From Oidiodendron maius Zn (lineage: Eukaryota > Ascomycota > Leotiomycetes > Myxotrichaceae), in contig KN832882.1 of assembly GCA_000827325.1 (NCBI GenBank), positions 756,689 to 820,688 on the forward strand: a DNA stretch of 64,000 nucleotides, given 5' to 3'. Every line of letters starts with the position of its first letter. Within the stretch, counting starts at the first letter, position 1. This document shows, one piece after another, positions 12,584-62,437 of the stretch. Below the pieces are notes generated by a model that saw only the letters and a program-made list of their open reading frames with translations, was not told where the DNA came from and made no database searches. A program made the position numbers and the translations under genes.

Positions 12584-12960
12584 TTACATTCCCATATTCT
12601 GTCGTAAGAGCTCCTTGACCTCCGCCACCTTCTTCCCTAGAGCATTAAAGTCCTGGCTATAAAGAACACTCGTCGGCATCTCTAGTTCCTGCTAAGTCGG
12701 TGCTCCGGTAAGATTACGCTCTATTAACAGTCTAGACAAGACTTCTATGTTTGCATAGTTGCCATTCTTACTGTTTCCGGGACTCCTCACGTTGCTTTGT
12801 TTTCTCTGGGGCCCACTAGTGGCAGTAGCACCGGAGGCTGGTAGGGCGGACCAAACGCCTCCTTAACTTGACTTAGCACATCAATGACTATGTAAAGCAG
12901 CGTAGATGCGGCTGTAGGTCTCATGTTTTGCGTCAGGACTGGAACTCTGTGCATAGAATA
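12584..12960 (-). pseudogene. Decayed reading frame with three RIP-type stop codons
   Basis: One minus-strand frame reads about 120 plausible residues from near 12960 to a stop at 12584, broken by exactly three stops: TGA at 12881-12883, a TAA about 18 bases downstream, and a TAG just before QELEMPTSVL. Each is one C-to-T change from CGA, CAA or CAG, the changes RIP produces. The remnant has a Ser/Gly/Asn-rich half (PQRKQSN, PGNSKNGN) and a helical, possibly coiled-coil end (KKVAEVKELLRQNMGM). No family is recognised. The match between lesion type and frame is what supports calling it a dead gene rather than noise. Confidence 0.45.
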
Positions 12961-13868
12961 TTGAGGAATGGGTTGGTCTAGTTTTTTATAGTGTCATACT
13001 ATTCTCGGCTTTTATGCAAGAAGCATCGCTAATATAGGTCTTAATATACCCTATAATGTTAGCAAATGCAGGACAGTGGTTGATCGCTATTTCAGCTCGT
13101 CCACTAATCAAGCAGATGTCTGCTCTCTCGTAGAGATGTGATGATCCATCACAATATTATTTCTACAGCGACGTCTTTTCAACTTCACGGGATAAGCTAG
13201 TATATGCAGGTTCGTCACTGCATATATCGTGTCGCATAATCGCATAATTAGGCTATGCTGATCTACTGATCCATCATACATATGTACGTCGGAGTTGACC
13301 ATAACCCCTGTTGCTGGGGATCGACACGGAGGTCGGTGATTAGGGTCTTTAAGTACTAGTTTGACTCTTAGAATTTGGTTACGGTTTCTACGGTCTGCTA
13401 GTATCACGGCTGTGAGGGGTGGAAGATTAAGGGGCTAATACAAGTGACATAATGAGGCGAGTACGTCCGCAAGCTTAGGATTTCACTTCCAGCCGATAGC
13501 GAGGCAGCTTGTAGACAGTAGGTACTATATTTGCAACTATATAGATATCCAACTACAGCTGAAACTATTGGCGAAGCAGGCTTTTGCGCACAATATAGAG
13601 TAAAAGCGAGGGGTCCCAGCGCCTGGCTCAAGACGAAGCCAAAGAGATGGATCTGGTCTATTTAACCCCATTTAATGAACACGGAGCCAGAATAGAATTG
13701 AAAATATTGTACCTCAAGAATAGAATGTCTTCCATCATTAAGGTAACGTAAACCCCCACCGATCTTTAACTTTCAGGCACTCGAACTGAGCCAAGGGCGG
13801 GTAGACCGGCTCGAGAGTAGCAGCACTGATCAAAGCCCTTTTGCCGCCTGTGAATATTAGCTGGTACA
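12961..13868. other. Intergenic, no supported gene
   Basis: Minus-strand open frames of 75-99 codons occur here, but their predicted residues show no domain, signal or credible splice structure. I treat them as chance. Confidence 0.4.
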
Positions 13869-14129
13869 CTAGTGACTCAGAGATATAGGAGGATCACTGA
13901 CACCCAGAATATCAAGACCAAGCGGGCTGTGCGTTATACTATCGCCACTGCCATCACCATCACCATTGCCATCACCATTACCATTTCCATCACCATTACC
14001 ATCACCATTCAAAAAGTCAAGGCTCAGTCCCGGAGGGGAAGGATATTGCTGAGAGGCCGGTGTTTCGACAGGCAACGCGGCAGCTGTGAGCGCTGTAAAG
14101 GCTGCAAGAGCAATGAGTTGGAGCTTCAT
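13869..14129 (-). CDS. Small secreted protein with Gly-Asp-Gly-Asn repeats
   Basis: An 86-residue intronless frame. The start chosen is the ATG at 14129 because it begins directly with a signal peptide (MKLQLIALAAFTALTAAALP); an upstream in-frame extension lacks this. After cleavage near ALP-VE, the mature peptide is about 68 residues, with a Pro/Ser-rich stretch, then a run of GDGN/GDGD units over roughly 20 residues, then a hydrophobic tail (LGLDILG). There are no cysteines, so it is not a classical disulphide-bonded effector or hydrophobin. The Asp/Asn/Gly run could bind calcium or be disordered. It is encoded by a trinucleotide-like imperfect repeat that could vary in length. A TATATATA stretch near 14275 may be its TATA element. 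Confidence 0.5.
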   Translation of the reverse strand: MKLQLIALAAFTALTAAALPVETPASQQYPSPPGLSLDFLNGDGNGDGNGNGDGNGDGDGSGDSITHSPLGLDILGVSDPPISLSH

Positions 14130-17100
14130 CGTTTCGAGTCTGTGGACAGTGGCAAGACGATAGATTAGATAATTAAGAACAAGTAGCACAGGGTAGGTAC
14201 CGTGTGGAACTGTTGCCTTGGATAATAGAGAACGGATAATAGTAGAAAGAGAAACCCCCTTGAGGTCTGAGTCTGCTATATATACTAATTTCCCTCTCTA
14301 TCTCTAGTAATGACTGTAACTCATAGGGTGCTGCCCGTGCCATTTTTCTCTACCTCGGCTTACGAAGCACGAAATTATTACAGAGTCTAGAGCGGTACAT
14401 GCGGGTTATAATGCGATGCATGCCAATGATCGACCGGGACAGATAGAGTAATTGAGCTTCATTTAAATAGACAGCTCATTTAATGCATCATAATCTCAGC
14501 AGTAAAGTCTCAGCTTTCGCGAGGCCGATATTAATTCATATCGTGAGATCTACTGTCTATCCACATATATTCTTGTTCTCTGCGTGGTGCTGTACGACTA
14601 GGCTATACAGCTTGCCACATCTGGGGGTTTGGCAGGTTGGGGGCTAGCTTTATAAAATACATCTCTTGTGAAAAGAAGGCGCAGCTTTTACCCACCTCCT
14701 CCCACCCCAGTGGATATCCTATCCGTGGCTCCCGGTATAACAAAATTCAAAGGAGAAGCATAAACTTCTAGAATTAACTCATAGATCTAGTTTAATAGTT
14801 ATCATCTCTTTGAGGTGAGGTCCGTGCATAGGGGAGTAGTCTGGGATTGTCGGGTTTAATAGCTGCTAGAGAGCATCACGTAGCTAATTCGGGATTTCTT
14901 CAATATAAGTGCTCTGATTCTCTAAGTCCTGGAAATATCCACGACTTTATACTAGCTAAGGAGTGATATGTTGCTAAATACAGACTGTAATCAGGATTCT
15001 AAAGAATTGTATAGCCTCATCCTTAAAGATAAAGTAGTAAAGGAGTCTCTTTAGTGAGTGCGCCGACTGGTTGTCGTGACGGGGTGGCGCGTCCACCAAC
15101 AAAACACTGACAAGCCTAACCAGCCCTGGTTTAGCCTCTTAGTCTTGTAGCTTCTCTTTTGCACGGCTCCAAATCGTCTGCAAACATAATAAATCTATAA
15201 GATAGTGTACTCTCACTAGAAATTTAAGCTAATCGGATGACTAATGTACACACCGCATTTGGCCAAAAAGGGTAAATGATATGTGATTGTACTATAGACG
15301 GAGGTAAGGAGGCAAGCAGAGAGGGAGTAATATGCATGATATATCATCAATATATCAGCCAGATAGTCTACTAGATGCTGCAACTGCGGCTATATCACTT
15401 ATTGAGAGTGAGGTATTTGGCTGTATTGAGGTAAACACTAGTATTTAGGTAGGTTTAACAAACTGGGGGTACATGCAACCACGGAGAAAAAGGCACAGTG
15501 GCGCAGGTACACGTGATGCAAATCCTAGAGGGGAAAGGTCAACAGCGATTTAGCTAAGTACGACAGCGATTTGGCTGATCTAACCCTTTGGTAAATACCT
15601 GCAGCTTAAGATTTGCTAGCTATACCATGCCAGCTCATTGGATTGTGACGGAAAAGTAATCAAATCTGCTTGCAAAGTGCGCCGCCTTTCTACTCCGCTG
15701 TGCACATTATGTCTCACGGTATGGGGCAATATCGAATTCCCGCCGGAGCTGCATGCGGCATATATCGAAATAGGGCCTTTCCAAAGTAAGCAGAAATGGA
15801 TGAAGATCTGTTTTCTAGGGTCAATGGCACAGTTGGTATTCCTTTATCTGGTCATATACTCTTGTGGGGTCTATGACGTCGCATTATCATTCAGCTATCA
15901 TCGCATGTTCACGAATATTGTCTTTATCGATTACCTGACTTTAAAAAGGGTCCAGCTAAATCCCGTCCGCAGCGTGAACCTCATTACCTACTAATCCTAA
16001 CCCATCCTAACCACTAGCCCCTAACCTTTGTATGAAAAGTGCCTTATACTTCGAGGCTTAGTCTATTATAGAGTTGGTGTCATAATAATATTATATAGTA
16101 ATTGGCCAAAAATATCGTGATATTATTGGTAGATCATTCTGAAGAGGAAAGGTGGACGGGATTTAGCTACTAGCGTAAGGGATATATTAGTAGCTAGTCC
16201 CTTAAAATTTACTAGCAGCGCTCGAACAATGACGGTCTGGGAAAGTAGACAATGCTCTAGCGGCGTGCAGCAACACGCCATTGTATGTAAGTGGCAGAGC
16301 TATACAGTAGATTCAGTATGGATCAACAAAATTTGAAACACCTCCTTTAAGTCAGGAGCACGGCATTTGTACCGTCTGAAGCTCGATTTCTATAGGATAT
16401 TGATGGAACTGGAGAACAATGCCCGGTAGAGATCTTCTAATACTTTAGGTGAAATGAAGCACGTCTGCAATGGTAGGCGGTGACTTTGAACAGTGATCAT
16501 GAAAGAGACGGGCTCTAATTAAGGATGATTTATTCTGAATTCTTTGAGCGAAGTTATGTTCTAGTATAAGTGATTTAGGTTTGTCTTTTCTTTCTTATAG
16601 TGTTAAGTATAAATTAGATCTAGAACAATTTCCAGGGAGACATTCACATTATCAAATTGATTAGCATTCAATTCTCGGTCAATTTCTCTGCATGAGCTGT
16701 CTGCGCTTGTGTTAGTATACAATTGCCGCCTCTATGGATAGAGAGTAAATCGAAACATCCGGGAAGTGACGAACTACTATGCAGCTATATTCAGACTGCA
16801 CACATCTATGGTCTGCTAAGTTTGATACCTAGATTCTAGCCATAACCTTAGCACTCAACAACTGGGACAAGTACGATACAAAGATTAAGTGCCCATCATA
16901 GAGGATGACAGGTAAGGGGTGACAAGTGCCTAGGTTTTGGAACTCCTTTCGGCTAGAATTCATTTAATGCAGTACAGACGATGCTTGAATTTGATTTTCC
17001 ATTATCCCATTCTATTTATCTCTTCTTTACCTAGTAGTGCGATTCTTATTTTTTCTTTTCTGGTAGTCTTTGGTCTTCAGTATATGGCGCGTGTCGTGTT

Positions 17101-40768: not shown

Positions 40769-40801
40769 TAATCGTCAGCCGATTAAGCGAGCCGACGATT
40801 A
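40769..40801. promoter_or_regulatory. Hairpin or palindrome in the HET 5' leader
   Basis: TAATCGTCAGC and GCCGACGATTA are reverse complements at 10 of 11 positions, separated by 11 bases. It lies between the TATA box and the start codon, so it could be a protein-binding palindrome or an mRNA hairpin. Confidence 0.45.
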
Positions 40802-40882
40802 TCGCCGGTGTTGATCTCGTCCAAGAATAATTCCTGTCGACAGCTATCAATATTCCGCTCGCCATCCGACTTGCCGAACGAT

Positions 40883-42772
40883 ATGTGGCTACTGTCGAAG
40901 ATCAGAGGAAGTCTACTAGGGGGCTTCAAGGAAAAGGCTAGCGGAGCAGAAAAGTTGGCCGAAAATGACCCTGGTCATCCGATTTACTACTCCCCGTTAA
41001 ACCCTGACCAGCTTCGACTAGTTGCTCTTCAGCCTGGTCACAAACACGATAGCATCGAATGTAAGATAGAATGCGCAACGTTCAAGTTTGCGAAAGAAAA
41101 GTACAAGTACAAAGCCTTATCATACATGTGGGGCTCTCCAGACAAACTGCGACCTATTTCAATCAACGGCGATACCTTCCATGTCCGAGAGAATCTATGG
41201 TGGGCTTTGTATCACTTGAGGTCAACTGGATATGTTGTTATGCTCTGGATTGATGCGCTATGTATCAACCAGGCAGACATAGACGAGCGCAACTCTCAGG
41301 TTAGGCAGATGGATCGCATATACACGGATGCCGAGGAAGTAATAATCTGGGTTGGGCGTGAAAGTAGCAAGGACAAGAATGCTTTGAAATATCTACAGGA
41401 GATTTTTAAGAAAGGGAGGATACCGGATAGCTTCAATCCGGAAGTTGCTAATCCCCTCGGGAATGCACAATGGTTTGAACGATATCTCTACATGTGGAAG
41501 GAGATTTCGATTTTTTGCATGCGACCGTACTGGACACGACTGTGGATCGTTCAAGAGGCAGTACTGGGCACCAATCCAACTATAATTTGTGGCAACCAGC
41601 GCATGAACTGGCAGATCGTTCACGACGTGGTTTACTCAGCTCCTCTCGTCGACTACCAGTTCAAGGGGAAATGGAAAGATATCCGGGTAGAGATCGGATC
41701 TAGCCCACTTCGCGGAGTCATTACGCAAAGGGGTCGGTGGACTAGGGCGCCGGGATCGCTCCCAATTCTGGGGCTCATTGCGGTACACCGTGCCGCTAGG
41801 TGTTCAGAAACACGGGACAAGGTCTTCGGGTTACTTAGCATGTCTAGTCCCTGTTGCAGGGAAGCCATTCCTGTTGACTATTCGGAGCCGGATTATGTTT
41901 TGTTCGTCAAACTCATCGAGCATCATCTCCGCAAGCACGACGTATACAGATATAACTTTATGATGCAAAGCCGCCGTGCTCTGCGGTTATTTTTTGGGGA
42001 ACAGAGTGACAGTGACTTGGAGTCTTCCATTGGATACATAACCAATATGTCATCAGATGACAATGAACTCTTTGAAGTCCCCCCGCAAATTAATGACGTT
42101 GTATATTACTGCACACCGAGTTTGGATTCTCTGCCTCCTGATTACGACAAGACCTTCCTAGATGACAAAGACGATTGGTCACCGTCCGGAAATCTTGCGT
42201 TTGAAATCAACAAGCTGCATGATCGTCTACAGGCAAGATGGGAAACCTTACTTAGCGACTTGAACAATATTCAAACCTTTGACTGGAAAGCCTCTTTGCA
42301 AGACCCTAAGAAAATAGGCGGGCTCGAAAACGGTTCTCTACCACTCCATAAGGATAGCACATCAGCGATAGACAAGAGCCTTGTTCGGAAGACAGTAGTT
42401 CGCATGATTCGTGGCGCTGAGAAGATGTCCAGAGATTCACCTCTTAGTGCTAACTGCAAATTGTTCTTTGCGAAGGGAGGCAGGATCGGCTTTGGTCCCT
42501 CTACGCTCAAAAGGGGGGACTTTCTCTGTCACTTCAATGATTCGGGAATGGATATGATTCTCCGCCTTCTACCTAACGAAAAGAAGCTTATTACAGTAGG
42601 TAACGTACTACCTTACTTTGCTAGTGATTTGCCAGTGCAAGAGGATACGGCCGCCGCTCGCCCCATGGTGTCGTTTCATTTAGACATCAGAACCTTACTA
42701 CTTATCGGCCTCCCAGAAAATGCTGCACAGTACGGTTTCAATATCAGTCAATACGTCATATGTTCAGTCTAA
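40883..42772 (+). CDS. HET-domain (heterokaryon incompatibility) protein
   Basis: Intronless, 629 residues from the first ATG in frame at 40883; the frame is open slightly further upstream. The HET domain spans roughly residues 76-230 and shows its three conserved blocks: YKALSYMWG, MLWIDALCINQADIDERNSQ and PYWTRLWIVQEAVLG. The C-terminal 400 residues have no recognised domain and contain an acidic region and DKVFGLLSM, a common post-HET element. HET proteins trigger growth arrest or cell death when incompatible hyphae fuse; partner and allele specificity cannot be read here. A 51-bp piece of this gene occurs inverted 10 kb upstream. The gene sits beside transposon remnants, as HET genes often do. 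Confidence 0.9.
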   Translation: MWLLSKIRGSLLGGFKEKASGAEKLAENDPGHPIYYSPLNPDQLRLVALQPGHKHDSIECKIECATFKFAKEKYKYKALSYMWGSPDKLRPISINGDTFHVRENLWWALYHLRSTGYVVMLWIDALCINQADIDERNSQVRQMDRIYTDAEEVIIWVGRESSKDKNALKYLQEIFKKGRIPDSFNPEVANPLGNAQWFERYLYMWKEISIFCMRPYWTRLWIVQEAVLGTNPTIICGNQRMNWQIVHDVVYSAPLVDYQFKGKWKDIRVEIGSSPLRGVITQRGRWTRAPGSLPILGLIAVHRAARCSETRDKVFGLLSMSSPCCREAIPVDYSEPDYVLFVKLIEHHLRKHDVYRYNFMMQSRRALRLFFGEQSDSDLESSIGYITNMSSDDNELFEVPPQINDVVYYCTPSLDSLPPDYDKTFLDDKDDWSPSGNLAFEINKLHDRLQARWETLLSDLNNIQTFDWKASLQDPKKIGGLENGSLPLHKDSTSAIDKSLVRKTVVRMIRGAEKMSRDSPLSANCKLFFAKGGRIGFGPSTLKRGDFLCHFNDSGMDMILRLLPNEKKLITVGNVLPYFASDLPVQEDTAAARPMVSFHLDIRTLLLIGLPENAAQYGFNISQYVICSV

Positions 42773-45874: not shown

Positions 45875-46965
45875 TCATGTGGCCTGCGTAATACTTCTGT
45901 CCCATGCTCCAAAAGAATACTGTGAATTGCACATATTTGTCTATTTTAGAGTAAGAACTCCATGAATGCACGCTGGAGAAATCTAGTACTTACCAACTCC
46001 CAATCTTCTGCCATTAGCTGTCCATAACAGCCTTCATCTTCCACACTGCCTACGGCACCTGCTACGAACATCGCACTCATAAAATGGTCATCTGTCCCAT
46101 GAGCATCCCGATATTGAGGATGTTTCATCAATCGAGTCATCCCTCTGCGCAGTTTTGGCCCGCTGTTATTCGTAATGACATCCTGTACTGCCTGTCGAAA
46201 TTCCAGGGCCCACGCTTCAGGAGGGGTTTCCTGGGCGAAGTTATCTCGATACCGCAGCATAGGACCCCAGATATTCCTGTACAAGTTATGTACGGCTCCA
46301 CCAGAACCAATGATGAGATAGTTCTCGCTACGGAGAGGTCGTAGTGTTGCTCCAACTTTCATATGATAATGGGGATCAAAGCGAGCATTCATGGAAACAA
46401 TAGTAGTCGGAGGACAACCGTCTGGGAACATTCTGATGAGTATAAGATAGGTGTCATGTATCCAGTCGAAATTGGGGTTGGCTTCGGCGTTGAAGCCCTC
46501 CGCTTTGAGCATATCTATGCAACGATTTGCGGTAGGAATGTCAGGATTTAGTTTATAATTGGCGTACTTTGACGGGTGAACATATGCGACAGGGCTTTTG
46601 TTAGGCTTTGGATTTGTCGCGATCTGAATCTTATCGTACAAGCAGTCCCAGTGAGCACCCTTCGCTTTGGATTAGTATAAGCAATCCTATAATAAGTAAT
46701 AATATTATTCTTACCATTATTATGACGCCTTTGATGCCATGTGCTATGGCATCGTCTCCGCATTTCTTCCAGTACGCTGCAGATTCACATTGTTCACCTA
46801 GCATCATAGTTGAGCCATGCGAAAAGAAATGGACGGGTGTCAAGGTCTCTAGTCTAGATGTCAGCTATTTTCGTAATTACAAAGTTCATTGGCCGCTAAC
46901 TTGTTGTCGCCATAGTTCTTAGGGTTCAATTCTGAATCTTGCGTTTCATACAACTTGGATGACAT
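45875..46965 (-). CDS. LigB/DODA-type extradiol ring-cleavage dioxygenase
   Basis: Four-exon model: 46965-46952, 46853-46715, 46659-45994 and 45919-45875. The tiny first exon supplies the ATG missing from the main frame (MSSKLLETLTPVHFFSHGS), and a donor GTAAGT after AEDWEL supports a short last exon. All expected metal/catalytic histidines are visible: FFSHGS, GAHWDC, IIGSGGAVHNL and GTDDHFMSAMFVAGA. Enzymes of this class use non-heme iron (or zinc at the homologous site) to open catecholic rings or act on related dihydroxy substrates such as DOPA. It is convergent with the ALDH-like gene, about 200 bp away, and lies next to the oxidative cluster to the right, so aromatic catabolism is a plausible shared theme. 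Confidence 0.85.
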
Positions 46966-47364: not shown

Positions 47365-50300
47365 CTAAAGGCCCTTTGTAGCATCCCCCAGTCCTTTAAT
47401 TAGCTGACTTAAATTCTCAACCAGCAGTGGCGGAGGAAGAGGCGTGTCACTGTCCTCATCCGAAGGCACACGTCTCAAAATCTTAACAATCGCATTCATT
47501 ACGTTTTGTGGGTCGGATATCCTTGTGATTTCTTTCGCCGTAATCTCGGATCCTGCAGCCACTGTTGAGAAGCAAGGTATACCCCGCCCTAATGCGATGA
47601 ACGATCTCGTAGCAGGGCTTTCTTCGGCATCCAGCCAGACGATGTCATCTTCATGGTTGTCGTCGTATTCACCGGATCCATTTTGATTAGGCGTATCTAG
47701 TCGATGCAGATCTTGACCGAGCCTTGGCCCTAAGCCCAAGACTCCGAAAGCCCAGAATGTGAGTGCAGAGTGATACACGGCGACGGCGAAGAAGTCGCGC
47801 AGCCCGCCCTGTTGAGCACCACCATTCCCATTTAGCAGTTTTGCATGCCGTACAACTTGGCCGGCATGGTAAAGTGCTGTTCGAGCTTCATGGCTAGCAG
47901 CCCATTGTTGAAGAGCTGGATAGACGCGCCGTGCTTCTTCCTCGCCCTCCCGGCCTGCAAAGAGTTGGAGATTATCAAAAGAGACGTGCAGGTGGGTGAG
48001 AAGAAGCTCTGTCAGTAATTTAGACTGCAGTATTGTGCCCGATACTTCTTTTCTTCTAGGCTCTGCCTCGGATAACGATACAGAAAAAAGCTGTAGCATC
48101 TGGCAAAGCTCCTGATGGCGGTGTTCAAGCACCAACATACCAGGGGTAAGCCTAGAAGGTGGATACGACTTTGCAACCGAGTTAAGTTGGCGGTAGTCCT
48201 GAATTAGTCCCCAAATCCCGTATGCTATTATGGATAGAGATAGAGTAATATCGATACGACTTCTAATAGACGGATTGGTTAAGGGCCCGATGTCGAGAAG
48301 ACACTGCTGCAGCGAGGGAATTCGTTCGTTACGATTTCCGGAGGATGTCTGCGAGAAGTACATGGATTTCCACTCATTGGCGGTGCGGGCAAGAAAGAGA
48401 CTGCGGGATTCTGGTAGAGGGAGAGAAAGTTCCGCATAGGATATTATGGTAGGAACGATGAAAGAGATTGATGTCTGCGCATCACGCGTGAAGAGGGCAA
48501 ATATAAGTCTTGTAGAGGTTAGCCAATATATTATCAAGCTAGTTGTGCCACATACCTCTTCATAGACTCCTGATATGCCCAACTCTTCCATTTCTCTTCT
48601 AAGATCTCATCCTGATCGCTCTCGTGCGGGATGATAACTTTGTAATTTGACCTTAGAAATCGACTGGCACGTCGACACATCGTTGTGAGCACGCCCGAGT
48701 GGCTTTCTGCCAATTCCATCTTACGCTTATTACCGCTCCAGAGCCCAACGTCCAAGTTGAGCATCATGGCTTGGAGCAGTCCTAGGTCACGCGTCACGGA
48801 ATTATTTTCCTCGCACACCCTTGGAAGAGCCAGCCTTACAGCTTCGTTTATTGCAAAGCCTAACTTGCGAATAGTAGGAGACGTTGAAAGAATGGCGCCA
48901 GCGGAAATAAAGCTCCCTAATAACGCTGCTCTCTGTTTCCCAATCCTTAAAGTCGGCATGTGTATCCAAGTATCCGGCTGCGCACGATGCGATGCAAGAA
49001 AAGAGTGTACACAATTATTCAGCAAGTCAACTGGTGGAAAACTTGACATGACCTTTTCAAAGGATGATCTCGACGTCGTATTAAGCACCATAGCCATGAC
49101 TTTGTCCCGTGCTACGGAGTCGAGATTATCTGTGTTGACATGCGCAGCATGGGCAAATTGCGTGCCGGTGGTGACCATTTCCGACGGTTGAAGAGTGAGG
49201 TAATGCTCCTCAATTAATCCTGTATCTGCGTGAACAGGTGTCCAACACCATGGGGATGATCGGAATGCGTTAGCGCCTAGTGCGATACATTCTGAATTGT
49301 TTTGAGTAATTGTGTTAGATTGTAGTCCAAGCTGTTCGTTGCTCGAATATGGATTATCGGCGACATCTTTCGGACCGGCGTTGTCTGCAGGATCCCTTCC
49401 GTGATAGAAGCTCATGACATTATAATCTTCATCGTTCAGTTCTAGATCGGATTCTAGCCCAAATGAAAAAATGTCTATGAAAGCCGTATTCTGAGCATCC
49501 GTGTCGTAGGCAGGCAATGGCTGGCTGTTGAACTGTTCTAATGGCGTAGGCATCATGACCTCGCGTAGGAAATCGGCGAACATGTTTTCATCGCCCCCTA
49601 TCAGCTCTCCAGCCGAGCCATCCATTGGCAATAACAGTGATGGATCTAACTTATCAGTAATTATCATTGCTCCTCGGGCTATAAGAGACATACCATCTTC
49701 AATACGGGCTTGAGCTACATTAATAACATCTCGCGACGCTTTCACACCTAAGTCGTCGCGAATTCGACCACTGCTTGACAAGAATTCTGTATTGTTCTCG
49801 TCATGAACATGCACGTCTTCATCTCTGGGATATCCAGTTGGGTCGCTTTCAGATGTGGTACTTGTGATATTTTGCGGGACAGTACTACTACCAGAGATTA
49901 ATTGCGGGGTGGCACGCCAGTGGCCAGCAATTCTGTTATCTATGTCATTGTACTCGCAAGTGATACTTTTCTTTTCGCATCTTTGGCATGGTTTCTTTTC
50001 TTTGCATCTCAACTTTGCCGCTGCACATGCCTTGCAAGCTTGTGAGACGCGACGCGGGCGAGAAGCGTGACTTTTATCATATCGACCATTTTCCGGGTGT
50101 ATTAGTGCATGCCTCTTCAATAAATCACTATCTACTGATCAATAGAGTACATTGGGCTGCGGTTCCGGAGGTAATATGCTTAACATACGGTCTATTAAAT
50201 GCCTTGTAACAGACTTCGCACCGATATGGTCTCTCGGAGGTATCTGAACGGCCTATTGTTAGCACTCCAGTCTCATTCAGCGCTCTTGACAGGGTCTTCA

Positions 50301-50452: not shown

Positions 50453-51116
50453 GAAGGCAGTCCGACATGACTATGGTGATCTGACTTACAGTCGGCATGC
50501 CGTGGGGTTTATCTCCAATATAAGGCGATGATAGGAACGTGACTTTCCCGACATCCTTGCCATCGGGAAGGTGGGGGATGCGGGGAAGCTGTCCATATCG
50601 GCTCCACTCTAGGCCGAGGCCCTGAGACAGGAAATTATACGGAACATGCCTCAAGCCGTCCTTGGTTACATCTGCTATAGGTCAGAAGACAGGGAAAAAT
50701 ATTCACGTCTCGGGGCAATTCGTTTACATTGTTTTCCTCAGTGCGGTTAGCAAGTACTTGCTACCACCTACGATAGGTGATCAAAGCAGAGACTTAAAAT
50801 TACCCCATCCTGTCTAGTCTTCTGCCAAGACCGAAATAATTTGCGTTGAAGGAGGAATTCATAAAATGAATAGCCTGTAAGCTCTTTGACTACACACACC
50901 CGTCATTATCCTGATCAAATCTCTCTGCCGGTAGCCTCAATATTGTAGTTTTATTCACACCCGGCTGATCCCGAAATGTTAAATTAACCCTTGCACCTCA
51001 TAAAATTATAATGCTAACCCTATCGTGCTTCCCCAGAATCCGATAATCTGGAATCAGATCAAGCTCCTGTTTTGCCGGTATAAAAACATCTATCCTCACA
51101 GGACTTGTCATCAACC
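50453..51116. promoter_or_regulatory. Divergent promoter between regulator and SDR
   Basis: 664 bp separating two genes transcribed away from each other. A TATAAAAA box at 51079-51086 is 31 bp before the SDR start codon. Zn2Cys6 regulators often bind CGG-type repeats, but I see no convincing paired site. Confidence 0.5.
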
Positions 51117-51926
51117 ATGACTTCAAGCAGCAAACCTCTGTCGACTTCTATCGCTATTCCCCAGGCACTTCCCACACTCGCAGGGAAGGTTGCTATTATT
51201 AGTGGCTCATGCTCTGGTATAGGAGCAGCCATTGCCATAGAACTGTCCTCACGCGGCTGCAACGTGGTTATCAACTATCCTTCTCCGTCTCTCCAGCCAC
51301 AGGCCGTTGCTTTATCTAATAGTCTTATAACTCGAGCTATCACGGTGTGCGCCGATATTTCATCAATTGAGGGTCCCCAGACTCTAGTAAATGAGGCAGT
51401 AAAGGAGTTTGGGAAGGTTGATATCCTGGTAAATAATGCCGCCATAGCAATTAACTTGCCTCTTGAAGAGCAAACTATGGAGCACTGGGATTCCCTTGTG
51501 AACCTAAATGGCCGAGGAACATTCCTTCTCACACAAGCTGTACTCCCCCATCTCTCGAGAAAAGAGTCAAGGATCGTCAATATCGATAGCATATCTTCCC
51601 GGGCTGCTCCCGCCCTACAGACGATTTACGCTGGAACGAAAGGGATGGTAGATTCGTTTACACGATGCTGGGCAAAAGAGTTGCCACCGAAATACGGATG
51701 TACTGTCAACGCCGTTAGCCCTGGACCGACAATGACGGAAGGATTTGCAGCTGCAGGAGAACCTTTTATGAAAATGATGCAGCCAGTACTAGATCAAACT
51801 CCAGTGGGACCGCGCATGGCCAAGCCGGATGAGATTGCCTTTGCTGTTGGCTTTCTGTGTGAGCCTCGGGCTAGTTGGATCAATGGACTGAATTTGACCG
51901 CGAGTGGCGGTTTATTCATAGATTAA
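51117..51926 (+). CDS. Short-chain dehydrogenase/reductase (classical SDR)
   Basis: Intronless, 269 residues from the ATG at 51117. Cofactor motif SGSCSGIG (30-36), NNAA (106-109), catalytic Ser158, Tyr171 and Lys175 (YAGTK), and the PGPTMTEG motif after the active site are all present, as in fungal NADP-dependent SDRs. The TGxxxGIG motif begins SGS rather than TGS, which the family tolerates. It should oxidise or reduce a hydroxyl or ketone on a cluster substrate in the cytosol. It is convergent with the hydrolase gene, 256 bp away, and is the first gene of the cluster on the regulator side. Confidence 0.92.
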   Translation: MTSSSKPLSTSIAIPQALPTLAGKVAIISGSCSGIGAAIAIELSSRGCNVVINYPSPSLQPQAVALSNSLITRAITVCADISSIEGPQTLVNEAVKEFGKVDILVNNAAIAINLPLEEQTMEHWDSLVNLNGRGTFLLTQAVLPHLSRKESRIVNIDSISSRAAPALQTIYAGTKGMVDSFTRCWAKELPPKYGCTVNAVSPGPTMTEGFAAAGEPFMKMMQPVLDQTPVGPRMAKPDEIAFAVGFLCEPRASWINGLNLTASGGLFID

Positions 51927-52182: not shown

Positions 52183-54117
52183 TCAATTTATAATTGGGAG
52201 AACAATATAGTTCTCCATTTGACGTCCGAAATGAATATGGTTCTGTCCTGCAAACTTCCCCTTTGGTCGGTCCACCTCACTGTTATGTTGAAATACGCCA
52301 CATCCTTGCGTATCACCACTGGTCACCTCCAAGATCAGCTTCCCTCCAATTTCGACAACCACGTTCGTCGGCCAAACCTCAACATCGACAGCATATATAT
52401 CTCCAGGTTTCACCTTATCCACATCTGTTGAAAGATACTCTCTATGCGGCAAATAGCCCCTATGCCTGGGATGTTCTTCGTTTACTTTCCTCATCGAGCA
52501 TCGAAGCCAGCCTTTCGTTAGTGGCACTCCGTCACCGGCAGTGCCTGTGAACAGCACCTCCTTGCCACTCGGATCAATATATCTAAGGGTAAGAAAGATG
52601 TCTATGTCCTTTTCTATTTCCGTGTCATCTAAGACCTCGGGAGTCATACTGACATTTAGGTGTGCCACAATATGACCCGTTATCTCGGTCTCCTCAGTGA
52701 ATGGATCGGTTTGAAAATTGAAACCTTGAAAATTATCTATTGATCCTAGAGCGTTGTAAGTCAATTTCACATCTCTGATTTCCTTCTGACCAGCGACAGT
52801 AAGCTCTTTCTCCGGTGTCAGGAAGTATTTGGTGTACCGGGTGTCAGGGAGTGGCCAGGCCAGTTCAGTGCGTGTCTTGAAAGCAGATTCGGCTGCTGGG
52901 TTATTGAAGCCTACATTGCCTTTTCGAAGCGTTATAGTTACAGGTGGTACTTTACCAGGTATAGACCACCCGTAATTGTCTTCATCTTTGAGGAAAGCAT
53001 CAAGGAAGGACTTTTGAATGTCCACTTCGTTATGGTAGCTTTTTCAACATTACTACGATGATTCTTGTAGAATATGAAATGCAAACTCACTAGAAGGGAA
53101 GATCATGTCGACCAGTGATGAATCGCAGGTATTTGAATTTCGAGCCTGCCCAGGTGTATCCCTCCACATTTCCTCGGAGGTGCAAATTGATGCCACCCCA
53201 ATTGGCCACGGAGAGTAATGGGACCTCGATGTCTTCCAAATTGAACTCTTTGCTAGCATAATAGGCATCATCTCTGAACCTATTCACCACATTATCTTCT
53301 GTCTGATCATGGCGATTTTTGCTAAGGGCATCTGCTGATAAATCACCCTCAATAGTGTCCTCCTGGCCCCGCGCACCAGGTCCATCTGCGGGAAAGGTGA
53401 GCTTTGACCGCCCGGGCAGTCCATATTGATTTACAAGAACTTGGCGATTCCACCAGAAAGAGATGAATTTGTTGGATAAAATGCCGCCATGTCGACAGCG
53501 GTCGCGATAATAATCAGACATACCCTCCCAAGGTATAATAGCAGCCAGGCCCTTTGGTCGTCGGGCAGCAACTCTCCACTGGCTCCCTAACAAATGTCGG
53601 TAAACAGAAGGTAAAATCTTGACAGAAACACGGGATTACCTGCGTAGTAACTAATTCCTAGCAGTCCCACTTTTCCAGTGCTCCATTTCTGCTCTGCTGC
53701 CCATTCCACCACGTCAAAGAAGCACTCGCTTGTTCCCCTACTCATGGTATCCAAAAATCCGGGGCTCTGTCCCAGACCCCGTTCATCTGCACGTAAAATA
53801 ATATAGCCTCTAGCCGTCCAGTACACGGGATCGGGAGTCTCCCATGCACTGTACTTGCTCCGGTGCTCTGGATTCACTTCATTAAACGAGCCACTGAAAA
53901 ATTTGTCATACGGAATGTCCTTGCCATATGGCCCATAAGTGACAAGTACTGGGAATTTATTGCCATCTTCCGTGCTAAGAGGTAAATAGACATTACAACG
54001 GACTGGCAAACTAGAATTTCGGAGAGGAATGGAGACATTCTTTCGGAAAACAAGGCAGTTTTCCTCATCGCGATGTATTTCTTGGATGTCTCTGATAATG
54101 TTGGATTCTGTCATCAT
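52183..54117 (-). CDS. CocE/NonD-family alpha/beta hydrolase (X-Pro dipeptidyl-peptidase S15 type)
   Basis: Three exons, 54117-53640, 53586-53091 and 53038-52183, give 609 residues, normal for CocE/NonD proteins. The N-terminal hydrolase domain has the nucleophile elbow GLLGISYYAG (Ser about 156), with the exon 1/2 junction falling just after it, and the oxyanion-side motif ADERGLGQSPG. A cap region follows, then the C-terminal jelly-roll domain of PepX/CocE with the terminal His region NHIHFG. Family members cleave esters or amides such as cocaine, acyl peptides and lactone-like substrates. In this cluster it may release or remove an acyl group or open a ring. It shares a 320-bp divergent promoter with the cupin gene. 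Confidence 0.9.
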
Positions 54118-54437
54118 TTGCACGACCGAAGTTGTTTCGATAGTTTCCTTGCATAAAGGGACCTGCGAATATGCATGCTAGATATATGTAAATTTAAATT
54201 AGACTCCAGTTAGAGACTAATTTTAGTGCGTTGGGGCCAGAACACGGATTGCCTGGGCAATTCGGGAGGCGTGGAGGACGCCGCCCAATGTGGAGGTGAG
54301 TAGGTAGGGCCGAGCCGAACAAATTCGATAACGCAGACCATTTCTATCATCCATCACTGTTCCGGTCCTAAACCGTGTTACTGTCACCATTGATCCGAAC
54401 GAAATAATTTCTCTCAATCACATCAGTCTTCTTAACC
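54118..54437. promoter_or_regulatory. Divergent promoter between hydrolase and cupin
   Basis: 320 bp between two outward-facing start codons. No clear TATA or palindrome is identified. Confidence 0.5.
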
Positions 54438-55119
54438 ATGACTTCACCATCGCTCAACAAAGAGGACGTTTTACCTGCCGCTCGACGGGGCCTTTCTCAC
54501 CCAAAACGCTTCATTACTGGGCACGACAGCAAAGGAAATGCAGATTTTAACACTTCGCTGCCTGAATTAATTCCTTTCCAGCAAATACCTGGAGATGCCT
54601 TATTTTCTTTGTGTTATGCGACAAATGAATTTCCTGTGACTTTGGATGACGACGCTGATGTTAAAGTGTATTCGGGTATGCAATGCATCAGCACATGATT
54701 CTCCATTTACCTCACAGTATTGAATGGAAACTTGAATTTAACTTACTGATTAAAGTGTATCAGACTACCTTAATAAACTTCCTGGTGTAATGATCCCCGG
54801 AGGTACTGTTCTCCGCATGGTTGATATGCCACCCGGTGCTACATCACCTATGCACCGCACCGTCTCTCTTGATTACGGTGTAGTTCTTGAAGGAGAAGTG
54901 GAACTCATTCTTGACAACGGCAAATCGAGACTGATGAAACGGGGAGATATGAGCGTACAGCGAGGAACTATTCACGCATGGAAGAATGTGAGTGGGGAGG
55001 GAATTTGGGCTAGAATGCTCTATATTCTACAAGAGTGTAACCCCTTGAGAATTGATGGCCAAGAGTTAAAAGAAGATTATGGAGGCCTGCAAGTCCCAGA
55101 AAGCAGGGAAACATCGTAA
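54438..55119 (+). CDS. Cupin-domain protein
   Basis: Two exons, 54438-54675 and 54764-55119, encode 197 residues. A single conserved beta-barrel contains PGGTVLRMVDMPPGATSPMH (first cupin motif, His in MHRT), then DYGVVLEGEVELILDNGK and the second motif near RGTIHAWKN (His). The protein resembles small stand-alone fungal cupins often found beside SDR and monooxygenase genes in metabolite and degradation clusters. Possible roles are metal-dependent isomerase, dioxygenase or decarboxylation helper; sequence alone does not decide. Metal ligands are only partly matched (two His visible), so enzyme activity is uncertain. Confidence 0.85.
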
Positions 55120-55443: not shown

Positions 55444-57850
55444 TTACTCGATTCTCCTGGCACTACTAACATCCGGGACACCGGTGCCTTCCACTACCTT
55501 CGCCTTCACAACCTCGTAGATCGGGACATCTGCCAGGACACTGACAATATGATGTAATGTAGGCAATGCATCCAAATCTAGCTTGTCAAATCTGACACCA
55601 GATTTTTCTGCTATTGTGACATATTTCACAGTCGACGGAACAACGCTTGACTCCTCCTCATGAGGAACTACAACAGGGTATTCGCAATCTGACTTGCCTC
55701 TCATATCTCTTCCAACCGCCGGAATATATTTATATACCAGGATCCCGTAGTCAGATTCCCCACCGATTGTTCCTTTTTCCGTTGCTGGATCAATCGAAGA
55801 GAGTCCTTCAAGGGTGAAGTCGCAAAATTTAGCTCCTTGCCATGAAGCTTGCATGCGATATGATTTTGACCTGCGGTGGATATCAATTGCACAGTATACT
55901 TTAGGCATTCCAAGCTCATCCCTGCCAGAGACAATCGGATCAGCCAAACTTTCAAATAGAAGAGGCATATAGGTGCCGTCAATTGTCGTCCCATCTTTCT
56001 TTGTGTATTGGACGCCGTGGATGTACAATCCAAAGTGATTGTATCCGCCACCGCCTAACCATACCATGTTGCCCAGTGTTGTAATTGAAAAACTGGCGTA
56101 TGCAACAGAGCCAGGAGATTTGAAAGAGAATGATTCGGTCGGAAAGAGGTTCTTAAGGAATGTAGCTGAGGTTTTGAATTTTATGGATGCGGTGACAAAA
56201 GTTTGCGCTAAACTTGGCCTAGGATTTCCCCAGATATCCTGTCTCGGGCCAGGAGCAGGGCCAAATGCGATAGGCATGCGGGAGTAGAGTTCTGGAGACT
56301 TGGCTCGTCGCCATTTCAGAAAAACATGCGACGAGTGATCGAACTCATCATGGCCAAAATTGTAAGCTGTGTATTTCATCACTGTGCATGATCAGCAAAC
56401 CATATAAAGCACTGGAAGCCATGTGACAGACTATCAATCGTAGGTTTCCCATCCACACAATCTGTACCGGCTTGTCTAGAATATTCTTGGATGTTATTGG
56501 CTCGCTCATATCGAATTTTCTCATAGAGTGCAAGACGCTCTGATATTTCTTCGGGTTTTGTGCCAAGAGGAAGGACCACAGTCAAAGTGGCGCTGTCTTC
56601 TATCGCAATGCCCCCGCCTTGCCCTTGATCTGTTCTGATTATTATGATGTAAGGTAAGTTCTCTCCATTTAAACTCACGAGGTAAGAAAGGATGTGCAGC
56701 ATCTCCCAGTAATGCGAGCCTCCCTTTAATCCACGTCGGCAAGATTTCCATGTCCATCAGCCTCCACGCTTTCAGACTACCCGGGTCTGCTTTTTGGAAG
56801 AGGGTGAGCAATTTCGGATCAAAATTCTGATATACCTTCAGGAGACTCTCCATTGAGGTTTGATTATTCCAGCCTTCTCGTCATTAGCAGGGGATTCAAG
56901 GGGAAGTAGAAATGATTCTGTACCCGTTGTGCCATCCTGAACTTCTCCTTCAGGATGAATGCATACAAAATTCAACAATTCGTTATTCTCGCACGGATAA
57001 ATTACTACCCGTCTGTCATTCCCATACCAAATGCATAATTCATTGTCATTTTCAAGCAACTTCTTCAACTCGGAATCGGCAACAGCGTCTTTTCTGGGGA
57101 TTAGGAATCTGAATGCAGCTTTCCCAGATCCGAATAACGTGATTGGATATCCAGTAACAAATTCTCTTGTCTTAGACTATACTTATATTCAGCAACACCA
57201 CGTGGAAATGACAAAAGACTTACATATATGCCATCAGCGCCAAGAACTAGGTCAGCCTGAATGATGTCGCCTTTCTCCAATGTGATCGTGGCATTATCTG
57301 TGTCGACAGCAGCTACTTTGCTAGATAGGTATAACTTTGCTGGCTTGCCAGGCCCCTCTGCCCCTGTTGCTATCTGCTTCAACTTGTCATGAAGTCTAAC
57401 ACGATGTACCAGCATCCACGGGTGCTGCCACATCTTGTTTTGTTCTGTTAAGTCGACACTTCTTGTTTCGGTACCCTTTTCGTCATATTCAACCAATCGA
57501 GACATTGTCACAGCACCGAAGTCCTCTGCCATAATATTATACCGCCTGAGGATACCGTTTGCATTTGGGGCGAGATGGATCGCAGCACCCACTTCAGATG
57601 CAAATTGAGATTGTTCATATAGCTGGGGATTATTAATGTGCGCCCTTAGTGAATTTTGGGTTGGGTGTTATACGGAAACATTATGTCCAGCCCTCCTCAA
57701 TCCGATCGCCGCCGCCAGTCCCCCAATCCCAGCACCAACAATCACCACTTCAAGGGGTTTCGGACCATTTATCCCATTGGCAATCTTCCTGTCTGGGTCC
57801 GTCAATGTACTTGAAAGGCCGTTTGTTGCCTGAGAATGTTCAATCATCAT
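55444..57850 (-). CDS. Flavin monooxygenase fused to an acetoacetate-decarboxylase-family domain
   Basis: Six exons, 57850-57674, 57622-57224, 57176-56924, 56873-56679, 56629-56432 and 56381-55444, read 719 residues without a break. Residues about 30-440 are a salicylate-hydroxylase-type FAD monooxygenase: VVIVGAGIGGLAAAIGLRRA, GADGIYSKTR, and GDAAHPFLPHQGQGGG (333 on). The last intron (56382-56431, GTCTGT donor) joins GKPTID to MMKYTAYNFGHDE, the normal monooxygenase tail, and the chain continues into an ADC domain from about 443 (MPIAFGPAPGPRQ) with Schiff-base Lys568 in GRDELGMPKVY. Read unspliced, the monooxygenase stop overlaps an ATG, which would suggest two genes; the family pattern favours fusion. 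Expected chemistry is FAD/NAD(P)H hydroxylation coupled to decarboxylation of a beta-keto or aromatic acid in the cytosol. Confidence 0.85.
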
Positions 57851-58440: not shown

Positions 58441-60032
58441 TTAATAGTCTCTAATCCAGTTCTGGTTCTCTAGTCCTTTGACCCCAGACACATCACCATC
58501 ATCTAAATATCCGCACACAATCCCCTTTGGATCCCACGTCCTCCTCAGACTCATCAATCTATTGGCAGCTTCGTCTGTCCAAAACTTCGCTTTCCTAACT
58601 TGAAAATCGGAGTCGCCTAAGTAAGCTCCCTTAGACCATGGGACAATACTCTGCATGATATCTTTCAGCCACTCTTTACAACGTATGTCGTCTTCGACAT
58701 CTTCCCATACCGTATACATCGCAAAGTAATGATCGCTCTGCATGCTACAGGCCATATCAGGCATTGATCTTCTACTCCCGGGTGCCATCGAGAACCAGAG
58801 TGCGAAACTCTTCTCACTGGGAAGAGTTGTATATGCTTTCTGTAACACGCCAGTCACATCTGCATTATTGCTTATATAGGCATTATCAACACAATAGCGA
58901 TGATTTGCGGGGTTTGCATCAGCCTGATCTAAGCATTGTTCCGTCAAGCTTGTTGGCTGTGACAATACTTCAACCAAGGCACCATTTGGATGCGATTCGT
59001 CAAGTGGCCGTAGAGCCTCGCAGGCAGCGGATTCAGATTCTTGAAACGTAACAATGTGAACCATAATGCAAAGTTCTTTCATGCCCTTGGGAGTGAGGCC
59101 CACGGCTACGATTTCGTTGCCCGGATCAGAAGAAGGTGAGATCTGCTATAGTGTTAGGCCGTTTGTGTCTCCACATCATATATTTACGGTTGCATAAGAG
59201 TAAGATAAGGAAAGAATGGAAAGAATATTAGAGTACCCTGGTTATCCAATCCATCACGGTTTTGTACCGTGAGATTGGATAGATGAACGTTGATCGATAC
59301 ATGACCGCTGGTCTTTTGCGCGTTTTCAAATAGAATCGCGTGACAATTGCGGGGAATCCTGTGACTCGTAAGTACGTATAATCAGGAAGAATATTGAAAC
59401 TTGCCTGGCCCAGCTCCTCTGGCGCACCACAGTAGATCTGAGTTTTCAGTCTCGCTGCAGTGTAAAATCTCTCCAGAAGCAGTAACAACATCCAAGCCCA
59501 CTATTTGCTCACATGCCCACCCCCAATTCTTGACGACGTAGAGTTAGGTCTAATTAACTATCGAAGATGCCAACGAGGAAAATAATCATACCTTGCAGTT
59601 CCATCCCATGCCACCCTGCAGCAAAAAACCCCCAAGTCCAACATCTGGACAATGCCCTCCTCCAAACATCAATCCCTTCGGGTGTAGGGTATTGTTCAAC
59701 ATAGATCCCGTAGTACTGGGCGAAACTTTCACAATACCCTGACCCTCATCTACTTCGATTTCTTTGAAGTCTTTCAAGTCAATTAGAATGGCGTCGTCGC
59801 GAACACTCCAGGCCGCCCAGCTATGGCCCCCAGATCTTATCGAGACTCTGCATCCCAGTTCGTTGGCTAATTTAACAGCTCCTTGTACATGTGATTGGCG
59901 TGTGGCCTTTACTATGGCCCTTGGGTACCTCTTGGGCTTTATGGCGTTGAAAATCCGATGAACGCGTTCATGTTCATACGTAGCCTCATCCGACGATCCC
60001 CTCCAGACAATGGGCAGCGGTATAGAATCCAT
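58441..60032 (-). CDS. Berberine-bridge-enzyme-type FAD-linked oxidoreductase
   Basis: Four exons, 60032-59592, 59528-59405, 59358-59237 and 59145-58441, give 463 residues. The PCMH FAD domain shows VSIRSGGHSWAAWS, whose His is the covalent flavin ligand, and GGGHCPDVGLGGFLLQGGMG, followed by WNCKNWGWACE; the Cys there is at the second attachment position, so bicovalent FAD is possible. GAGPGFPAIVTRFYL and the C-terminal CGYLDDGDVSG motif are typical of fungal members. Intron 2 has a GC donor (GCAAGT) instead of GT. There is no signal peptide, so it is probably intracellular, although many relatives are secreted. Such oxidases dehydrogenate alcohols or couple and cyclise metabolites with oxygen. 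It shares a 450-bp divergent promoter with the MFS gene. Confidence 0.9.
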
Positions 60033-60484
60033 GCCGATGAAGTATATGGACGCTTAGATATCACGAAAAGGTTAATTAAGTCATACCTGATGAACCATTG
60101 TCCCTTAAGCTCTTTATTGTCCCATGATTGTTTTTGTCGCATGAACATACCACTCACAACCGCACGGGCATTTCCCCCACTTCCCGAAACTTGGGAAATT
60201 CGTTACATCCCCCTGCACGCACCATATTTTGTTGTGGGGTTACGTGTGTATCCCTGGCCCGCTTCCCAGATCCTGGTGATCCTGAGAGCTGCTTTTTTAC
60301 TCGTTGTCCAGGGGAAGCTAGCTTAAATGCTCATTGATTCCACGAGGCCGATACTGCCTTGGCTGGATCAACTGTTCTCTGGCAGTACAGATGTGCATTA
60401 CCAGCAATCCTTCTAATTCATATACAACCGAGCTGAGCACCATCACGACTACCTGTGCGACTTTGCAAACAGTACTCGAGATCA
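60033..60484. promoter_or_regulatory. Divergent promoter between BBE oxidase and MFS transporter
   Basis: 452 bp between outward-facing starts. No definite operator is seen. Confidence 0.5.
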
Positions 60485-62437
60485 ATGGCGGGCGCCATAG
60501 AACCTATCAATACGAATAATGGAGACAAAGAGCCGCTCAGGAAAATCCACACTCTAGGAAGTGTGCGGCATCGTCATGAGCACACGAATGAGATTATACT
60601 GATTCCGACCCCTTCGCAGGATCCCAATGATCCTCTAAACTGGTTAGTGCAAATGTTTAAATCTAGAAATACTCTCTAGCACCACATTGGAGGGCGATTA
60701 CTGACGTCTAACTCAGGAGCCAGGCCAAGAAGTACTACGTGGCGACTTTGATTTGCCTTGCCATGTTCATGTGCAACTTCCTTGCGGCCGGGCCAACAGT
60801 TGCTATCGTAGAAACTGCGATGTATTTCTTTCCAAACGCTGGCCAGGCTGGTTTAGCCGGTGCAATATCCAAGACGGCATATTTCTTCACTACAACCGCT
60901 CTCCTTCAAGGGGTTGGCAATCTCTTTTGGATGCCACTGGTCAACAAATATGGACGTCGACCCGTATACCTAGCAAGTTATACTTTGTATCTTGCTATTG
61001 CTTTTTGGCTGTCCTTCACGAATTCTTATTCCAGCTTCTTGGCGGCCCGCATACTGATGGGCATAGCCTCTGGTGCTGCTGAAGCCACCGCCCCTCTTTC
61101 GATTGCTGATAGTAAGTTACATTACCTGCCGTTCACTTAATTGAAGGCTCATAGCTGTAGTATTCTTCCTCCATGAGCGTGGAGCAGTAATGGCGTAAGT
61201 CCCTCGCTGCATTACTTCGGGAAATTGCTAAGAGTCACTAGAATGTATACCTCAGCCCTTTCATGTGGTGTCGCAGGAGGTATAATTATTGCTGGGTAAA
61301 TAACCATATCTCTTATGTCTTGTCAAATTCACTCACGGATATCTTGTACCACGAGACTATGTGCAACTTTCTTTGCTAACCAGAAAACACCAGATTAATT
61401 ACCATACACAACACCTGGCGAACGATCTACTATGTTGCAACTGCTTTAATTGGCGGCCTTCTCGTACTTGTCTTCTTTACCTTTCCTGAGACCGGTTTCA
61501 ACCGCGATATTACAAATGTTAATGGCTCCGATATATCACCAACACAAGAAAAGGCTAATATAACGGTGGACCATGTTGAGTCTGGAAGTAGCCCACCGGT
61601 GCCAAAACGCCGAGCATACCTGCAAAATCTCAAAATCATCTCCGGCACCTTTACGCACGAGAAGCTAATCAATCTTTTCGTCCGACCTATTGCATTGATA
61701 ATACTGCCTCCTGTCCTATGGGGATCTCTCGTGATGTCTGTGACAATTGGGTTTCTGGTGGCAGTGACATCCAACGTTGCGCCAGCGTACGCCACGGCGT
61801 ACGGATTCCAGGCTTGGCAGACTGGACTTTGTTTCTTCTCAGCCATAATAGGCTCTTTGATAGGTATATTTATTGGAGGGCATATGAGCGATAAAATGGC
61901 GGACTGGTTCACCAAGCGAAATGGAGGTATTAGAGAGCCTGAAATGAGGCTGCCTAGCATTGCGATAAGCTTGATCACTACGCCTCTTGGATTGATACTA
62001 TATGGGGTTGGAATTCAGAAGCAGCTACATTGGATGTGTCCAACAGTTGGCCTTGGCCTGCGTGAGTTTTTCCGTTGTCTTGATCTTGGATAACTGGCTG
62101 ACTTGTCACGATAATAGTGAACTTCTCGATTGTCCAAGCCACGAACGTCTCCCTTGTCTACACTATCGACTGTTACCGTCCAGTAGCAGGAGAAGTTACT
62201 GTTACATCTGTGGCTTTGAAGTCCTGCTTTGGCTTCTTGCTCTCCTTTTACACAAATCCTTGGGTTGACGAGTCAGGCTACCTAAATGCTTATGGAGCTA
62301 TGGCGGGTATATCTTCTGCGATTCTGCTGTGTTTTATTCCTATGTATATCTTTGGAAAGAAAATCAGACATACAACTTGGCGCTGGAGCGTGGTAAAGTT
62401 TGTGCGTTGGGATGATGATAGAGAAGTCGGCGAATAA
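60485..62437 (+). CDS. MFS transporter (fungal multidrug/HOL1-like group)
   Basis: Six exons, 60485-60642, 60717-61111, 61155-61194, 61242-61295, 61394-62061 and 62118-62437, encode 544 residues. Two very short internal exons (40 and 54 bp) restore helix 4-5 sequence VFFLHERGAVMAMYTSALSC. The N-terminus carries the signature DPNDPLNW, the loop after helix 2 reads NKYGRRPVYLAS, and a long charged central loop separates the two six-helix halves. It should be a plasma-membrane proton-coupled transporter, either exporting the cluster product or importing its substrate. It is divergent from the BBE oxidase and convergent with the P450. Confidence 0.9.

Follow-up and report, generated by a model that had tools for sequence, protein, structure and literature searches.

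A predicted fungal gene joining a class A flavin monooxygenase to an acetoacetate decarboxylase-superfamily domain, and its clustered bacterial relatives

Flavin monooxygenases of fungi can be fused to a second enzyme domain, as in CTB3 of cercosporin synthesis, which is a methyltransferase-monooxygenase fusion. Domain databases may list a further architecture in fungi, that of a monooxygenase with an acetoacetate decarboxylase (ADC) domain. No description of this architecture was found in the literature searched, a body with most subscription journals outside its coverage. Extradiol cleavage of aromatic rings, to which such proteins may be relevant, is regarded as chiefly bacterial. Here we describe a gene of the monooxygenase-ADC kind within a 64-kb stretch of DNA from Oidiodendron maius Zn (the window) and compare it with relatives in its own genome, in bacteria, and in archaea.

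The gene lies on the minus strand at 57850-55444 and is predicted to encode 719 residues and a stop in six exons, all read from that strand. Exon 1 (57674..57850) contains the start codon and the FAD-binding motif GAGIGG (residues 39-44), and is followed by monooxygenase sequence in exon 2 (57224..57622, with GADGIY at residues 187-192), exon 3 (56924..57176), exon 4 (56679..56873, with GDAAHP at residues 333-338), and exon 5 (56432..56629), in which the match to the FAD_binding_3 domain ends. Exon 6 (55444..56381) supplies the monooxygenase tail (YTAYNFGHDE), then the ADC-superfamily domain and the stop. The five introns are all of the GT..AG type and 47-51 bases long; the one that joins the domains is intron 5 (56382..56431, 50 bases, phase 1). 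The exons sum to 2160 bases, or 720 codons including the stop. As proof of splicing this exact sum was dropped: when 150 combinations of acceptors were tried with the donors fixed, 16 of them kept an open frame of 707-720 residues. The codon count is therefore weak evidence, and the strong evidence comes from a paralogue.

This diverged paralogue, P2, is located on another contig (L003, minus strand 5622-3171), has 749 residues, and is identical to the window protein at 410 of 687 aligned positions (60%). Introns 1, 3, 4, and 5 are common to the two genes, at equal aligned position and phase. P2 has no intron 2 and its frame runs on across that site, between exons 2 and 3 of the window gene, so that this acceptor is fixed independently in the window gene. 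The splice at intron 5 yields TIDMMKYTAYNFGHDE in the window gene and EINMMAYTAYNFGHDE in P2, which bears out the original prediction that the last splice restores the monooxygenase tail. Differences between the genes amount to 0.63-0.66 at third codon positions and 0.20-0.23 at second positions, alike in the monooxygenase part, the junction (a stretch of 35 codons only), and the ADC part. Third-position differences are thus about three times the second-position ones at the junction, which reads as coding. Both proteins contain FAD_binding_3 and ADC above the curated Pfam cut-offs, each pair in one predicted spliced frame. The fusion is confirmed at the level of gene structure, with splicing as predicted from sequence, and the earlier view of one gene with six exons and 720 codons holds. 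At 56377-56381, the stop that is reached when intron 5 is retained overlaps the next ATG (TGATG), an arrangement that would suit coupled translation; in P2 the stop on retention lies instead at a TAG within the acceptor.

The 45.9-Mb genome contains at least two copies of the ADC domain, and among the matches listed from searches with PF06314 and with the exon-6 protein these are only the two fusions. The monooxygenase half matches 52 stretches, with the exon pieces of the fusions counted in. One sibling monooxygenase, at C1:6535864-6537017, matches in three pieces (44%, 33%, and 61%), and directly behind them, up to 6537158, there is a 55% match to residues 1-29 of exon 6. This tail match has an E value of 0.08 alone and rests on its position; it is in the same open frame, judged by the length of the frame (136 residues) and a start spacing of 276 bases, a multiple of three. 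No ADC match was found behind the sibling, as a search with the exon-6 protein up to E 1 returned the two fusions and the tail stretch. A third related monooxygenase thus appears to carry the tail of the fusions without an ADC domain, suggesting that the tail belongs to the monooxygenase and that the ADC part has been either acquired or lost.

The N-terminal half has a nearly complete FAD_binding_3 domain at residues 34-388 (66.5 bits against a Pfam cut-off of 22, profile positions 3-345 of 349). Its GAGIGG, GADGIY, and GDAAHP are the GxGxxG, DG, and GD motifs of class A flavoprotein monooxygenases, and on both domain and motifs the protein belongs to that class. The predicted flavin monooxygenase is therefore present and apparently intact. 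Among sequences of solved structures, 31 are related to it at E 1e-10 or better, headed by a decarboxylative vanillate 1-hydroxylase (8x38, E 2.6e-53). Third among them is 8gsm, named 4-hydroxybenzoate decarboxylase (E 9.9e-44); SorC, which we take to be a dearomatising enzyme, is a weaker match than 8x38. The half does not reach the cut-off of the salicylate 1-monooxygenase equivalog TIGR03219 (127.4 bits against 446.35), that of the 3-hydroxybenzoate 6-monooxygenase equivalog NF006021 (172.9 bits against 459), or any other among the best 25 of 76 NCBIfam families. Its description as a salicylate-hydroxylase type is accordingly apt in a broad sense, but not in the strict one, given the shortfall against TIGR03219 and a vanillate 1-hydroxylase as the best relative.

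The C-terminal half belongs to the ADC superfamily, as was predicted, on the grounds of profile score, fold, and an aligned lysine. PF06314 (ADC) covers residues 443-632 (50.3 bits against 29.8 in the whole protein, profile positions 2-170 of 238). A phmmer search of the PDB with exon 6, up to E 1, found 3cmb alone (7.4e-17), and a profile of 26 relatives found 3cmb and three other ADC sequences. An AlphaFold2 model of exon 6 built on the 26-row alignment has a mean pLDDT of 74.2 and a pTM of 0.76, with pLDDT below 50 at residues 1-54 and 147-156 (the loop before Lys568); it was used in place of a two-row model with a pLDDT of 30.7. All 24 Foldseek matches at E 0.001 or better belong to the ADC superfamily, with 3cmb at the top (1e-20), followed by aldolase-dehydratase, ADC, Swit_4259, and MppR structures. 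The start P..FGP...PR is common to all nine aligned separate bacterial relatives, and the domain in the fusion therefore looks whole.

In the sequence alignment with solved ADCs, Lys568 (GRDELGMPK; codon 55900..55902, minus strand) stands at the Schiff-base lysine. The clostridial PKK is displaced by six columns there, and the register of the lysine was taken from two other solved ADCs with equal GRE-PK spacing. The residue before the lysine is A in two rows of a nine-row bacterial alignment, S in one, and otherwise P. In true acetoacetate decarboxylase (EC 4.1.1.4) Glu61 and Glu76 are catalytic. With positions numbered by the 3bh2 row, these correspond in the window protein to S506 and H523, and they are replaced in both fusions. 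In the 32 rows of the subfamily, glutamate occurs in none at the E76 column and in one (L032) at the E61 column. From the aligned sequences, Schiff-base lysine chemistry is likely and true acetoacetate decarboxylase chemistry doubtful; since the glutamates are replaced, the term ‘decarboxylase’ is not established, and Schiff-base chemistry of the aldolase type is as likely.

Relatives of the fusion were searched for in prokaryote and plasmid collections in addition to its own genome. A contig scan of genomes with linker peptides gave no match. A scan with core motifs gave at least 27 loci (L004-L030), 16 of them with methanogen titles among those listed. Eight plasmid records contain a relative, and six were examined. 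In Agrobacterium vitis and Rhizobium leguminosarum, a run of genes read in one direction comprises the ADC-like gene, a VOC extradiol dioxygenase, an MhpA-like monooxygenase, and an FAH-type gene, with an MFS gene between the monooxygenase and the ADC-like gene in A. vitis. Near the ADC-like gene in the other four examined plasmids, no monooxygenase homologue was found. Genome searches with the subfamily alignment matched 2 of 398 genomes in a draw by phylum, 5 of 297, and 19 of 298, with genomes G001 and G072 recurring across draws. This gave 59 loci (27 from core motifs, 6 from plasmids, and 26 from genomes), with L063 and L004 covering one and the same place and with short contigs among them.

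A monooxygenase homologue is found in eight of the 59 loci (none of the 27, two of the 6, and six of the 26, respectively). The same eight also contain an FAH-type gene and a VOC extradiol dioxygenase, in three arrangements; L072 has the VOC match alone. No such monooxygenase lies within reach in the remaining 51, among them all of L004-L030. The ADC domain thus has no general link to oxygenases, and the methanogen-titled loci show that members of the wider ADC family can also stand with no such monooxygenase close by. The order VOC, monooxygenase, FAH, ADC is identical in L070, L071, L074, L076, and L077. The full order in L074 is TonB receptor, VOC dioxygenase, monooxygenase, FAH, TetR (on the other strand), fumarylacetoacetase-like, ADC, a 167-residue ORF, and MFS; the segment at 6197-16783, with its TonB, VOC, monooxygenase, two FAH-type, ADC-like, and MFS genes, looks like an uncharacterised aromatic pathway. 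One strand of L075 reads ADC, VOC, FAH, monooxygenase, fumarylacetoacetase-like; four ORFs picked in this locus had no family, the VOC and FAH matches being on the strand opposite to them. A 584-residue ORF around the Sphingopyxis ADC was considered as a fusion and rejected, as the part before its YRMP start overlaps an ORF on the opposite strand that is LysR-like by eye.

The association of monooxygenase and ADC genes was noticed before it was tested. As a control, 16 of the 19 matched genomes were searched with the window monooxygenase; in the three that were excluded (G697, G805, and G842) the ADC match was weaker or partial. Eight genomes gave 12 monooxygenase matches at E 1e-10 or better, a limit of which the match in L077 falls short, and the eight others gave none. 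For five of the 12 the distance to the ADC gene is 3.6-6.2 kb, and for a sixth it is 11.4 kb. The chance expectation within 8 kb of the ADC gene is 0.05, with a Poisson value of 3e-9; this value is too small, because five of the six genome loci with the monooxygenase share a gene order, presumably by descent. Proximity of the two genes exceeds chance for this one monooxygenase type. The arrangement in Rhizobiaceae is a separate case because its monooxygenase is of another subfamily.

In the neighbourhood of the fusion, the main exon of a LigB-type extradiol dioxygenase is at 45949..46671 on the minus strand (PF02900; 4,5-DOPA dioxygenase chains in the PDB, best E 2.9e-12), about 9 kb from the fusion with at least four genes between. 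For the LigB gene as a whole (45949-46961), an additional exon with an HGS motif was seen by eye upstream of 46680, and the start is uncertain. Between this gene and the fusion are a Zn2Cys6 transcription factor (48537..50138, minus; PF00172), a short-chain dehydrogenase (51084..51923, plus; PF13561), a CocE/NonD (S15) hydrolase in three ORF pieces (52186..54177, minus; PF02129, PF08530, and TIGR00976), and a cupin_2 protein (54408..55116, plus), for which PF07883 matches 54754-55116 and the PDB cupins 8x0u and 3es1 are close. On the other side are an FAD-linked oxidase (58444..60053, minus) with PF01565 (FAD_binding_4) on 59589-60053 and no family for 58444-59145, an MFS transporter in two ORF pieces (60712..62090, plus; PF07690), and a cytochrome P450 (62582..63685, minus; PF00067). 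Further away, a single frame of 661 residues at 40787-42769 encodes a heterokaryon-incompatibility (HET) domain, and two minus-strand ORFs at 727-7011, far from the fusion, contain polyketide synthase domains (acyltransferase, dehydratase, methyltransferase, and ketoreductase). Homologues of the FAH-type, VOC, and ALDH genes of the bacterial clusters were not found within the 64-kb window, nor was a ring-cleavage gene among the four ORFs tested in the flanks of P2.

Taken together, we consider it rather probable that the gene encodes a bifunctional enzyme, with a monooxygenase and an ADC-superfamily part, of an aromatic and most likely ring-cleaving route. The basis in sequence consists of the gene structure, the paralogue, the two families, the aligned lysine, and the bacterial neighbourhoods; from these we infer expression, substrate, order of steps, pathway, and the kind of Schiff-base reaction. 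The N-terminal half (approximately residues 30-420) would act as a class A flavin monooxygenase that hydroxylates an aromatic acid, possibly with loss of a carboxyl group, and the LigB-type dioxygenase of the cluster would open the aromatic ring. The C-terminal half (approximately residues 437-719) would form a Schiff base through Lys568 with a keto acid of the same route, after which a C-C or C-O bond would be broken or made, by decarboxylation, retro-aldol reaction, or dehydration. A ring-cleaving dioxygenase lies beside both genes in the bacterial clusters, so the ADC-like step may follow ring cleavage. Against this explanation, the bacterial and fungal dioxygenases differ in type, VOC in the one case and LigB in the other. 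A precedent in its favour is Saccharolobus grown on phenol, in which two ADC-superfamily transcripts increased 77- and 82-fold in a catechol 2,3-dioxygenase setting; because these proteins resemble the aldolase MppR, the authors propose that both may have a role in breaking down phenol (PMC7820114).

Different models can be considered for how the two halves are related. The original prediction had them coupled on one substrate: in a single step the monooxygenase would produce a beta-keto acid, either dearomatised or hydroxylated on the ring, and exactly this product would be decarboxylated by the ADC-like domain of the same chain. Both domains are on one chain, Lys568 is retained, and among solved structures a decarboxylative hydroxylase comes closest to the monooxygenase, with the dearomatising SorC behind it. 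However, the replacement of both catalytic glutamates, which extends through nearly the whole subfamily, the aldolase-dehydratase titles among the fold neighbours, and the ring-cleaving dioxygenase that accompanies the gene pair in bacteria all speak against direct decarboxylation, and we regard this model as unlikely. What survives of the proposed coupling is that the monooxygenase and the ADC-like part possibly act in a common aromatic pathway, as the bacterial gene neighbourhoods suggest. The interpretation shifts from a decarboxylase acting on one intermediate to a Schiff-base domain of the ADC superfamily in an aromatic, perhaps ring-cleaving, route. Another model places the fusion in a secondary-metabolite cluster as a tailoring enzyme, with a dearomatising or epoxidising monooxygenase and an aldolase/dehydratase-like domain. 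An FAD-linked oxidase, a P450, an MFS transporter, and a Zn2Cys6 regulator are neighbours, polyketide synthase domains are within the window (at about 0.7-7 kb), and the modelled fold is near that of aldolase-dehydratases. Yet the polyketide synthase is more than 45 kb from the fusion, no core synthase is among the 16 longer ORFs scanned at 40-64 kb, and the genes associated in bacteria are of a catabolic type, so that this role is somewhat improbable, if conceivable.

Simpler accounts of the locus fare less well. The ADC-like domain could be a non-catalytic or structural passenger, with the monooxygenase alone at work, as the loss of both catalytic glutamates in the two fusions might suggest; the lysine, however, is kept in both and in every bacterial and archaeal row aligned, and between the window protein and P2 the ADC and monooxygenase parts are under equal constraint (identity of 61% and 59.5%, second-position differences of 0.20 and 0.22, respectively), making such a passenger quite improbable. 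It is hardly credible that two genes have been mis-joined, with the monooxygenase ending inside intron 5 and a separate ADC gene starting at 56379. The donor of intron 5 in the window gene is weak (GTCTGT), and the TGATG overlap is as such a reading would have it. P2, however, shares both this intron, there with a GTAAGT donor, and the tail, and retention of intron 5 would destroy that conserved tail, giving a 424-residue monooxygenase with an unrelated tail and a stop at the acceptor. Moreover, separate bacterial relatives begin near the YRMP motif, approximately 30 residues past 56379.

The preferred reading, that of a bifunctional enzyme of an aromatic route, has some wider significance. 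A fungal fusion of enzymes that have bacterial relatives in ring-cleavage clusters is a lead to a pathway that can be tested, and it offers a first functional guess for ADC-like proteins that are named acetoacetate decarboxylase though they lack the catalytic glutamates. Three fungal transcript studies list genes called acetoacetate decarboxylase (PMC6934579, PMC10960036, and PMC9100685), and the name may mislead if those genes are of this kind. We put forward, tentatively and with less confidence than the reading itself, that fungi and bacteria share an undescribed ring-cleavage route in which a Schiff-base enzyme of the ADC superfamily acts after extradiol cleavage in place of the usual C-C hydrolase, decarboxylase, or aldolase, and that in fungi this enzyme became fused to the monooxygenase at the entry of the route. 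One fungal chain would then perform both the first step and a later one.

Both parts of the enzyme are of known kinds, and the new points are their joined form and the bacterial association. In comparison with known systems, 8x38 and 8gsm resemble the N-terminal half, but their chains of 496 and 465 residues match over the monooxygenase part and are too short for an extra ADC domain. The closest solved relative of exon 6 in both sequence and fold is 3cmb, an acetoacetate decarboxylase entry from Methanoculleus marisnigri, which is a stand-alone archaeal protein of 283 residues, in contrast with the fused domain here. The ADC-superfamily fold is also found in the aldolase-dehydratase of Streptomyces bingchenggensis (4zbt and 6eej, titled as Schiff-base or covalent complexes), Swit_4259 (5upb), and MppR (4jmc), but these are single-domain chains with no monooxygenase and 10-14% identity to exon 6 in the fold alignment. 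Classical acetoacetate decarboxylase (3bh2 and 3bgt) has the same fold and Schiff-base lysine, whereas in the window protein E61 and E76 are replaced and a valine stands in place of the second lysine (K116 in the clostridial enzyme). The plasmid clusters of Rhizobiaceae (L033 and L034) and those of the Sphingopyxis family (L070, L071, and L074-L077) likewise bring together a FAD_binding_3-type monooxygenase and an ADC-like gene of the same subfamily, but as separate genes and with a VOC dioxygenase and FAH-type genes present. CTB3 resembles the window protein in that a flavin monooxygenase of a fungus is joined to another enzyme domain, and differs from it in the partner domain and the pathway.
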